From the NCBI RefSeq assembly GCF_007833165.1, contig NZ_VOBQ01000002.1, positions 248,001 through 312,000 of the forward strand: a stretch of DNA of 64,000 nucleotides. Reading direction: 5' to 3'. This document shows positions 47,820 through 50,008 of this stretch, in pieces. The DNA is from Caenimonas sedimenti (GTDB lineage: Bacteria > Pseudomonadota > Gammaproteobacteria > Burkholderiales > Burkholderiaceae_C). Made by a program: the position numbers and the translations under genes. A model generated the notes under the pieces. That model did no database searches, was not told the DNA's origin, and saw only the letters and a program-made list of their open reading frames with translations. Numbering within the stretch: position 1 is the first letter of the stretch; each line of letters starts with the position of its first letter.

Positions 47820-48362
47820 CTACACCTGCAGCGAGCCGCGAAAGCCCCGGGCGGCGTAGTACGAGTCCGCGCCATTGTGATAGACGAACACCCGGCCATA
47901 GCGCCTGTCGCAGAAGAGGGCGCCCCCGAGCGAGCGGACGTCGGGTGGTGTCTGCACCCAGCTGGACGTCTTGGTGTCGAATTCGCCCAGCGTCTGCAGC
48001 ACGCGGTACTGTTCCTCCGTCAGCAACGCGATCCCCATGGCGGCCGCCATTTCGAGGGCGCTGTCCTTCGGCTTGTTTTCCTTGCGGGCGTCAAGTGCTT
48101 TCCGGTCGTAGCAGACACTGCGCCTCCCGGCCGGACTTTGCGCGGAACAATCGCAGAAGGTGAACCGGGCGGGCTTGCTGTCGCGGCCGATCACGTCCGG
48201 TTCGCCGCCGGATGCTTCCATCGCGCGGAGCGACGTCAGTGCGGTAGGGTTGGCTTCCAGCCTCGCCCCGACATCCGCCCAGGCCATGCCTGCGTGCCGG
48301 TGCATGTTTTTCTCGAAGCGCGCCTGGAGGATTTCGAGCAGTGGGTCAGCTTGTGGCTTCAT
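47820..48362 (-). CDS. DUF4256 family protein
   Basis: A 180-residue cytoplasmic protein matching DUF4256: ARFTFCDCSAQSP (about residues 65-77), SVCYDRKALDARKENKP, EEQYRVLQTLGEFDTKTSSW and the C-terminal GGALFCDRRYGRVFVYHNGA. Family function is not known; its Cys and His content hints at metal or nucleic-acid contact. It is the second gene of a pair with the UPF0158 gene (4-bp overlap). Confidence 0.8.
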   Translation of the reverse strand: MKPQADPLLEILQARFEKNMHRHAGMAWADVGARLEANPTALTSLRAMEASGGEPDVIGRDSKPARFTFCDCSAQSPAGRRSVCYDRKALDARKENKPKDSALEMAAAMGIALLTEEQYRVLQTLGEFDTKTSSWVQTPPDVRSLGGALFCDRRYGRVFVYHNGADSYYAARGFRGSLQV

Positions 48363-48793
48363 GGAGGTTCCGCCGTGAATTGGATGCCATTCTGGTCCGC
48401 CCAGGCGCGTAGCGCCTGTTCGATCCCGTTCGACTCGTAGGCGTGCCAGGTGTCCAGCATCCCGATCGCATCGAGCAGGCTCTTGAACTTCCCGTACGCC
48501 CCCGGTCTCCCGAAAAAGCCCCTGACCTCCACGGATCGCGCCGGCACGTGCTCCTCCGTGAACTCGAGCGCCAGGCTCCTGCCAAGGTCAAGCTCGTTCT
48601 TGCTCGGAACCGCCAGGTACAAGCTGTCGTCATCCACATCGGCGGGAGGCTCGTCCCCGGAGTCGTCCAGATCGGAGACCAGCCAGATCTTCCCCGTCTC
48701 GCGGCTCACATAGGCGTTGTTCTCGAAAGGCCCGACCGCGCTGACCCACTCGAATGCGTCGAGGAGTTCGGAAAGGCGGACGAAGGTGGTCAT
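48359..48793 (-). CDS. UPF0158 family protein
   Basis: A 144-residue acidic protein like the UPF0158 family: an N-terminal helix (LSELLDAFEWVS), a beta region with AYVSRETGKIWLVSD (about residues 27-41), then YLAVPSKNELDLGRSLALEF and a helical C-terminus with WADQNGIQF. Function unknown. It overlaps the DUF4256 gene by 4 bp, and the cassette-like region begins directly upstream. Confidence 0.75.
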   Translation of the reverse strand: MTTFVRLSELLDAFEWVSAVGPFENNAYVSRETGKIWLVSDLDDSGDEPPADVDDDSLYLAVPSKNELDLGRSLALEFTEEHVPARSVEVRGFFGRPGAYGKFKSLLDAIGMLDTWHAYESNGIEQALRAWADQNGIQFTAEPP

Positions 48794-48845: not shown

Positions 48846-48938
48846 TCATCCGAATACTTGTGTGACCTCGATCGTTCCGACGATGTTGTCATTCATCTCC
48901 TCCAGGTCTTCTGCCGGAATCCAAACCAGGCGGTGTCC
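48846..48938 (-). pseudogene. C-terminal remnant of an ADP-ribosylation/crystallin J1-like gene
   Basis: Thirty codons ending at a TGA read GHRLVWIPAEDLEEMNDNIV and then GTIEVTQVFG. This pattern (WIPAEDL-x-x-x-N-x-x-I-V-G-x-I-E-V) is the typical C-terminus of short proteins annotated ADP-ribosylation/crystallin J1. No start or upstream part of that gene exists; the frame runs into the N-terminal piece of another ORF. It looks like the surviving tail of a deleted gene. The family match is from memory. Confidence 0.5.
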
Positions 48939-49066
48939 GGGTCCTCTCGCACGAGGTCCCATTCGCGATCAGTAGCCCAGGACAACGACTCACGCGCGCT
49001 TGAGCGCTCCGGCTCCTGCCAATGTTGCACCCAGGCTTCTGCAAGTGAGCCGAGGTCTTCATTCAT
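48893..49066 (-). pseudogene. Truncated ORF, N-terminal fragment of a DUF6869-like protein
   Basis: Fifty-seven codons from an ATG three bases after the attC-like end: an N-terminal MNEDLGSLAEAWVQHWQ, then DREWDLVREDPDTAW, which resembles the DUF6869 N-terminus (tentative), then unrelated residues to a stop. The expected continuation is missing. It overlaps the out-of-frame remnant at 48846-48938, so two genes appear to have been joined by deletion. Confidence 0.45.
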
Positions 49067-49069
49067 GAG

Positions 49070-49159
49070 GGATAACGTGCGAGTAACCGGCGACTTGCGC
49101 CAGGAACTCGCGGAGCGAGCGGACGCCGCAAGGCGTCCGCGTTGACTAGCTGGTTAGAC
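49070..49159 (-). other. attC-like recombination site of an integron gene cassette
   Basis: Read on the minus strand, GTCTAAC (R'', 49159-49153) follows the stop of the gene at 49178 by 18 bases. Next come L'' CTAGTCAAC, a central region with a perfect 9-bp hairpin (GCGGACGCC-TTGC-GGCGTCCGC), L' GTTACTCG and R' GTTATCC (49076-49070). L'' and L' pair apart from one mismatch and one unpaired C, the extrahelical-base pattern of attC sites; R''/R' pair at 5 of 7. The next ORF starts 3 bases after R'. R' departs from the GTTRRRY consensus and the centre is branched, so it may be degenerate. Confidence 0.5.
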
Positions 49160-49177
49160 ATCGATTTCCACGCTTCG

Positions 49178-49708
49178 CTACTCTGAACCGAACCCGTGCT
49201 TCTTCGCAAAGTGGCGATGAAGGATGAAGTCAAGAAAGAGTGCCTCCATAGGCTCATTCTTCGGCAGCTCATTCTTCGGTGGGGTTGCGTGATCGATCAT
49301 CGATTCCATCGCCGAACGAATTTGACGCCCAATATCCTCGAAAACCAGGCTAGCGCGAGCACGGTCGGCAGGAAACGAGGGAGTGCCCTCCGCGTAGATC
49401 GCAGCCGTCAAAATTGCTTTCGTCACAGGCGAAGTGCTCACTTGCTGCAGCAAGGCAAGCGCAGCATCGTTGCTGGGACTAGGGACAGCCCGTTGCAGAT
49501 GCATAAAGGCGAGGCAGAGCCTTGCACGGTCGTCCCCTCCAGACGCCCCCGATAGCAACTGGTCCAGTCCGGCCGCAACTTCCTTCGGGTTGCCGCTCGA
49601 GACTCTACGAGCAGCCAAATCGTTGGCAGGTTCGAGACACACCCCCATCGCCGCCAACGGGATTGTCATTGCCGCAAGAAGTACCAATGCGCGAGAGACC
49701 GTGTTCAT
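49178..49708 (-). CDS. Secreted hypothetical protein in a cassette-like setting
   Basis: A 176-residue protein with a signal peptide (MNTVSRALVLLAAMTIPLAA, cleavage near AMG-VCLEP). The mature part is helical with CLAFMHLQRAVPS and ALALLQQVSTS, recalling Sel1/TPR-like repeats but not matching them clearly. Base composition is noticeably lower in GC than the surroundings. The ATG is 4 bases after the heptamer GTTAGAC (49719-49713, minus strand), with no ribosome site, and an attC-like site follows the stop. This is the standard arrangement of an integron cassette gene. Function unknown. Confidence 0.65.
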   Translation of the reverse strand: MNTVSRALVLLAAMTIPLAAMGVCLEPANDLAARRVSSGNPKEVAAGLDQLLSGASGGDDRARLCLAFMHLQRAVPSPSNDAALALLQQVSTSPVTKAILTAAIYAEGTPSFPADRARASLVFEDIGRQIRSAMESMIDHATPPKNELPKNEPMEALFLDFILHRHFAKKHGFGSE

Positions 49709-49712
49709 CGAC

Positions 49713-49719
49713 GTCTAAC
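49713..49719 (-). other. Core-site heptamer GTTAGAC (cassette junction)
   Basis: On the minus strand GTTAGAC matches the GTTRRRY integron crossover consensus exactly and is preceded by TTGC, giving TTGCGTTAGAC as at many cassette junctions. The same heptamer in inverted form marks the far end of the cassette at 49153-49159. No full attC was found upstream of this junction, so it could be an attI-like or rearranged site. Confidence 0.45.
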
Positions 49720-50008
49720 GCAATGTATAGAGCACGCGCCGGATATCCCCGACGCTGCTCGATATGAAGTTCGAGGAAGTCGCCGCAACTAGAAGCCCGC
49801 ATTCACATTTTTGCTCAAGGCTCATCTCGCCCACCTCCGCTCGCCGCACGATCACCGGCAGCCAAGTCTTGCTCGATATCCGTGCCGGATAACACTCATT
49901 CTTGACGGAGAACCCAATCAGGTCAAATGCCGAAGCTGTTGATGGCCAATGGGTTGGCCGTGGCGCGGGCATCTGCATGACAAATAAAAGTCGCGCCAAA
50001 CGCCGCAT
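49715..50008 (-). CDS. Hypothetical protein, 97 residues
   Basis: Starts with MRRLARLLFVMQMPA, a possible signal sequence, and continues with FSVKNECYPARISSKTW and SLEQKCECGLLVAATSSNF. Two-cysteine spacing (C-E-C) and the beta-prone C-terminal half suggest a small secreted protein. The segment after the signal (PRPTHWPSTASAF) looks out of frame: the alternative frame there reads RATANPLAINSF, a more natural signal-peptide end, so a frameshift is possible. The stop TAG lies inside the GTTAGAC heptamer. Low-GC composition. No family recognised. Confidence 0.4.
   Translation of the reverse strand: MRRLARLLFVMQMPAPRPTHWPSTASAFDLIGFSVKNECYPARISSKTWLPVIVRRAEVGEMSLEQKCECGLLVAATSSNFISSSVGDIRRVLYTLR

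Follow-up and report, generated by a model that had tools for sequence, protein, structure and literature searches.

Within the window, that is, the whole 64,000-nucleotide stretch of DNA from a soil-type bacterium analysed here, the minus strand carries an integron gene cassette and reads, in order, as an attI-like sequence with the core G|TTAGAC, an ATG, a frame of 176 amino acids, an attC and a second ATG. The features of the locus and of its downstream neighbourhood are the following:

49713..49738, minus strand: attI-like site (region GTGCTCTATACATTGC|GTTAGAC), the left junction of the cassette, 16.3 bits with the attI model R2
49713..49719, minus strand: core site G|TTAGAC, exactly reverse-complementary to R'' (49159-49153), with the recombination point after the G (49719)
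49076..49718, minus strand: gene cassette of 643 bp as circularised, bounded by the T of G|TT (49718) and the G of R' (49076)
49178..49708, minus strand: cassette ORF, an open frame of 176 aa (P0001), orphan, with its ATG 4 nt after the core
49070..49159, minus strand: attC of 90 bp, with R'' at 49159-49153 and R' (GTTATCC) at 49076-49070, 93.7 bits with the attC model R1
48893..49066, minus strand: ORF of 57 aa that starts 3 nt after R', a second cassette, decayed and lacking an attC of its own
48846..48938, minus strand: fragment of 30 aa in another frame, the end of a cassette-type gene (65.5% identity over 29 aa)
48359..48793, minus strand: gene of 144 aa, sharing 67% identity over 140 aa with L164:857-1276 of a congener

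An initial annotation had drawn attention to a GTTAGAC followed 4 bases later by a start codon, to a low-GC gene, and to a GTCTAAC that opens a 90-bp attC-like structure whose L'' and L' arms pair around an unpaired base. All of these are present: GTTAGAC lies at 49719-49713 and the ATG at 49708, the structure that opens at 49159 measures exactly 90 bp and ends in GTTATCC (49076-49070), and an extrahelical C is found in L''. The first bases of the cassette, TTAGAC (49718-49713), are complementary to its own R'', GTCTAAC (49159-49153), as expected because a cassette is a circularising unit; in the circular form the G of R' joined to TTAGAC is restored and is exactly complementary to R''.

The attC was evaluated with a covariance model (R1) built from 12 attCs of the same genome, ten from the array on contig C24 and two from the start of contig C51; the structure was annotated by hand and the attC of the window was left out of the training set. 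In the 5.9 Mb genome the window attC reached its 93.7 bits with an E-value of 9.1e-22, so that the model search on 49070-49159 that had been set beforehand did not return a background score. In the training alignment, 94.9% of the cells are standard pairs versus 28-38% in slid controls, a comparison biased in favour of the drawn structure since it was taken from its own training sequences, and 12 of the 28 pairs changed on both sides among the 12 attCs. In the window attC 26 of the 28 pairs are standard; the two mismatched pairs are in R''/R', and the outer R' is part of the next unit. This attC is 92% identical to the one at C24:184396-184485 in the main array of the genome. The second-best match in the window scored 15.7 bits, leaving 49070-49159 as the only convincing attC; even with filters off R1 detected no second attC in the window and gave no score to a degenerate attC upstream of 49719. 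On the same search, the possibility that the window has more than one intact cassette was rejected. Other approaches were less informative. Heptamers of the form GTTRRRY are not enriched in the window (40 found versus 57.8 expected), and the unconstrained minimum-energy folds of the two strands (z of -4.06 and -4.34) are made of inner hairpins, without the R''/R' and L''/L' pairing. There was no Rfam match in the window at the gathering thresholds, and tRNA and promoter scans yielded nothing useful; a single promoter-like match was obtained at 49926-49898, with 0.3 expected. From these analyses we conclude that the locus is a real gene cassette with a genuine attC, located away from any intI. 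The sequence observation of the initial annotation is thereby confirmed and its cassette interpretation partly supported; excision and integration of the cassette by the integrase are predicted.

The cassette ORF has a GC content of 0.574 against 0.680 for the window, a value at or below that of all but 0.3% of the 531-bp windows. Its product, P0001, gave no family match at E<=0.1 in Pfam or NCBIfam, and in a search of 5.8 billion proteins it retrieved only itself at E<=0.01. A second start codon had been noted 3 bases after the attC; the ATG is indeed there, at 49066, and the frame that it opens is broken at 57 aa and lacks an attC of its own, with a homologue in none of the 154 loci that were fetched. 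The 30-aa fragment matches (E of 2e-9) the end of a gene of Ramlibacter pallidus (L097/L167) that lies 20 bp before an attC. The congeneric counterpart of the 144-aa gene is located between attCs at 759-845 and 1293-1379 of L164, i.e. inside a cassette, and R1 found no attC after the 144-aa gene in the window. The neighbours downstream of the window attC are thus the remainder of a longer row of cassettes, of which one attC survives. The 144-aa gene overlaps by 4 bp the start of a DUF4256 gene (47820-48362, minus strand), and in the genome G022 a DUF4256 gene is found at 2 kb or less from an attC.

As the initial annotation had stated, the window contains no intI: tblastn with IntI gave no match in it and no trace of the gene at the locus, and the closest matches to the IntI profile on the same contig are weak and lie 42 kb past the end of the window. 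The search for an integrase elsewhere in the genome, which had been proposed, revealed a full-length intI at C24:186012-186953 that has no stops, scores 452.6 bits with TIGR02249 (cut-off 265) and covers positions 1-314 of the 315 of the profile. It is accompanied by an attI, a LexA-like box (TACTGTGATTAAATACAGTA) and a normal cassette array. With R1, 20 attCs were found genome-wide at E<1e-3, plus one further match with E of 2.96; 12 of the 20 belong to the C24 array, and the others are distributed among the window (1), C24:455458 (1), the start of C51 (2), C51:206626-207722 (3) and C14:23490 (1, weak). A 69-bp attC at C24:179437-179505 was visible by eye only, beyond the 12 model matches. 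Given that the intI is on another contig with its own array, the window locus is an off-array single cassette in an integrase-bearing genome. The proposal of a solitary CALIN in a betaproteobacterial chromosome consequently holds for the taxonomic placement (the same-genus IntI records carry the names Ramlibacter and Caenimonas) and for the local lack of intI; it does not hold for the genome, which has an integrase, nor for the class. The CALIN default requires at least two attCs without a nearby intI (a threshold of two according to PMC9024848) and the window has one, whereas a single attC lacking an integrase, as in the window, corresponds to a SALIN (the term used in PMC9229058).

The genome is a draft of 51 contigs with a contamination estimate of 1.9%, for which reason a misassembly or a contaminant contig had to be considered. 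We regard this as highly improbable, given that the locus is placed 297 kb into a 436-kb contig, the flanking genes are ordinary and have congeneric relatives, and the attC is of the same type as those of the array of this genome.

With respect to the remaining off-array clusters, the one at C51:206334-207722 (L156:2335-3723) is also headed by an attI-like site, and in it an ORF-poor cassette is apparently present twice, around a different one. A stretch of ~70-115 bp located far upstream of the core is common to the left flanks at the start of C51, C14 and C24:455 kb; when searched in 40 relatives it was found only in this genome, so it was rejected as the common factor of the off-array clusters. 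The left flanks of L019 and L157, two off-array loci of this genome, have a 115-bp stretch with G+C-rich motifs that is 98% identical between them, a dispersed intergenic repeat.

The initial annotation missed the attI-like nature of the left core. A sequence model (R2) of 23 intI-linked attI sites, none of them from this genome, produced in the 5.9 Mb two matches at E<=10, each at the left end of an off-array cluster, one of them at C51:206 kb (E of 0.001) and the other the window junction (E of 0.066). The genome's own attI on C24 is divergent; it was missed by R2 at E<=10 and is an outlier in the junction matrix (leave-one-out value of 2.4). This matrix comprises the 20 bases to the left of the core and was derived from 24 intI-linked attI; a second one was derived from ten intI-linked attI not named as belonging to this genus, a set that includes L086, which is the same-genus genome G077. 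With each of the two matrices the window junction ranks first among 127,946 window positions, and with the second it reaches 13.5, as compared with 3.8 or less for 34 internal attC cores. The resemblance to the intI-linked attI of relatives is therefore present, and an adjoining intI is absent. Weighing against a reading of the site as an attI platform, the R2 match is weak when taken alone, it is short (26 nt, model positions 20-45 only), and the similarity to the attI on C24 does not extend further. The failure of R2 to find that resident attI, the lack of any intI trace at the locus by tblastn and the lack of an empty site among the relatives point in the same direction. Altogether the left junction is best described as attI-like, and its use by IntI as a double-stranded recombination site is predicted. 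No empty site was found, and none of 60 relatives has both flanks together.

The left junctions were also compared across 32 off-array clusters, 31 from this genome and 18 congeners plus that of the window; the sequence reverse-complementary to the first R'' was taken as the left core, blind to attI. In 22 clusters the complementarity was exact, and the ten without such a core were dropped. With the second matrix, 17 of the 22 junctions were matched by 25 or fewer window positions, L182 by 69 and L178, a weak case, by 500. Three junctions (L193, L195 and L201) are not attI-like, which, like the weakness of L178, counts against the platform reading.

These data bear on the possibility that IntI inserted the cassette at an ordinary chromosomal site (attG), attI-like by chance or by preference. 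In E. coli, off-target insertion is an established process (Loot et al. 2024, as cited in PMC12901181, PMC12444791 and PMC11023631), and an insertion at an attI-like chromosomal site is possible given the shortness of the window match without extended homology to the resident attI; the three junctions that do not look like attI also agree with it. However, according to PMC12901181 attG sites differ greatly from attI, and by the definition given in citing papers they resemble neither attI nor attC, while the window site ranks at the top of 127,946 positions and belongs to the two best attI matches of the genome. It is also matched by 39 similar intI-less sites in the genus, and at least two intI-less sites share 150-340 bp with the attI region of their own genome. 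A plain chromosomal insertion, taken as the first model, was disfavoured by the matrix and model scans, and we consider it rather improbable.

The intI-less sites are not restricted to this genome. In five congeners R2 detected five intI-linked attI and 14 other sites, and over six genomes 15 of 16 matches not linked to intI are just upstream of an attC, two of these 15 having weak attCs (28.5 and 26.5 bits). A scan of 59 same-genus genomes (R2, E<=0.1) gave 76 matches: 19 have intI in cis, four have a broken or partial intI, 39 lack intI and have an attC within 3 kb downstream, eight are at contig edges, and six have neither intI nor attC. The 39 intI-less attC-bearing sites are spread over 25 of the 59 genomes, and tblastn with IntI gave no match at any of the 39; at L243, one of the attC-only sites, the attC is weak (22.8 bits). 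Excluding the 19 intI-linked and the eight edge sites, an attC follows at 42 of 49, while the expectation by chance is ~0.2% per site. attI platforms without intI are thus common in this genus; the sites may have lost intI or may never have had it. A genus-wide occurrence of attI-headed CALINs was not encountered in the open-licence literature that was searched. The six attI-like sites that lack both intI and an attC within 3 kb (L240, L245, L246, L247, L249 and L251) are possibly empty docking sites or sites with other attC types. In G005:C20 (L193/L251), a different tyrosine recombinase, ~31% identical to IntI, is encoded between the attI-like site and an attC at a distance of over 3 kb.

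Traces of how the integrase may be lost are visible at other attI sites of the genus. The four with a broken or partial intI (L217, L232, L233 and L235) retain pieces of it (231 aa in one, a gene in two frames in another, ~110 aa in pieces in a third and 40 aa in a fourth) and constitute a graded series of integrase loss. In the genome G007, an intI-less site (L173, G007:C1:4292750-4293071), separated from intI by 475 kb, aligns with the entire intergenic region between intI and attI at 83% identity over 338 bp; this copy ends within ~10 bp of where intI would begin, and it has a degraded LexA-like palindrome but a nearly unchanged final 60 bp of attI. A similar intI-less copy exists in G033 (87% over 156 bp), and in both copies the attI end is better conserved than the remainder. 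L206, like L173, is a nearly complete intI-attI intergenic copy without intI and with a degraded LexA-like box. In G035, where no full intI match was obtained at E<=1e-60, a 42-aa piece of the C-terminus of IntI, 95% identical to the IntI of the window genome, is found near an off-array cluster (L201, G035:C51). The LexA-like box, searched for as CTGN10CAG within 420 bp upstream of attI, occurs at 16 of 16 intI-linked attI versus 3 of 39 intI-less sites, with a background of 72 in 636 random 420-bp stretches of the window (11%); the strict form occurs at 10 of 16 versus 0 of 39. These counts indicate that the operator of the integrase promoter is gone where intI is gone, and that the attI was kept. 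The window site is one of the three intI-less sites with a loose match, which counts against the platform reading, though 11% of random stretches of the window have such a match as well.

The same traces could be interpreted as those of a dead relic, in which a complete integron once occupied the locus, its intI was deleted, and no recombination has taken place since, the intI elsewhere in the genome being irrelevant. The graded loss in the genus, the decayed second cassette and the missing attCs of the window locus are in line with this idea, and a derivation of CALINs from integrons by degradation has been proposed (PMC9024848). Nonetheless, the window attC is intact and closely related to one in an active-looking main array, the cassette ORF is open, the attI ends of the G007 and G033 copies are better kept than the rest, and no trace of intI was detected at the window locus by tblastn; we judge a dead relic to be unlikely, although less so than an attG insertion.

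The explanation that we favour, with a probability of roughly 0.6, is that an intact cassette sits at an attI-like site devoid of intI, that its junction was made by IntI, and that such platforms lost intI and are served in trans. IntI would have recognised two partners, namely the attI-like site (G|TTAGAC at 49719) and the attC, in folded form, of a cassette present as a free circle, and joining both sites would have inserted the 643-bp cassette so that its start codon came to lie beside the junction; that IntI made this junction is inferred from established integron chemistry. The integrase gene would now be the one on C24, which is accompanied by an attI of its own, a LexA-like box and an array with 12 or more attCs. 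The intI-less platforms would descend most likely from integron platforms or from copies of the attI region; they would have lost intI and the LexA-controlled promoter, with the attI remaining. The single remaining IntI could then fill or empty the platforms in trans, and in the window the intact cassette is followed by what is left, in decayed form, of one or more others. That the C24 IntI may still act at the window site is suggested by the kept attI, the intact attC and the likeness of this attC to those of the main array.

Several known systems resemble this arrangement in part. As in SALINs and CALINs, an attC and a cassette gene occur without a nearby intI in a genome that has intI elsewhere, a situation described as common in Shewanella (PMC9229058) and Xanthomonas (PMC12444791); the difference is that the first cassette of the window lies at an attI-like site. 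According to PMC9024848, IntegronFinder does not look for attI outside class 1 integrons. The sole precedent found for a CALIN with its own attI is the Shewanella prophage M16-3, in which the CALIN is headed by the same attI as the adjacent complete integron (PMC9892861); that is a single case in a prophage that also carries the integron, whereas here the sites are chromosomal and occur in 25 of 59 genomes. With the sedentary chromosomal integron of Burkholderiales the window locus shares the attC family, the presence of the IntI family in the genome and the attI-like site, but it lacks intI and the strict LexA-like box. With attG insertions it shares a cassette integrated outside the main integron, and differs in that its junction resembles attI.

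For the origin of CALINs, three possible routes have been recorded (PMC8618304, citing Cury et al.): a cassette may be inserted off target, an integron may lose intI, or a rearrangement may separate the two. An attI at the head of a cluster allows these routes to be separated by sequence alone. As a more tentative proposal, which we hold to be somewhat less probable than its contrary, Ramlibacter would have a distributed integron, with one SOS-controlled integrase and several attI platforms around the chromosome, which would have retained attI after losing the intI and LexA box that they once had. If so, cassettes once captured could be re-docked elsewhere, with different neighbours and promoters, and many CALINs and SALINs would be attI platforms that are live, as opposed to dead arrays or insertions at random. 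With live platforms, the integrase and the docking sites would be separable parts in nature, and integron counts that require a nearby intI would miss part of the system.
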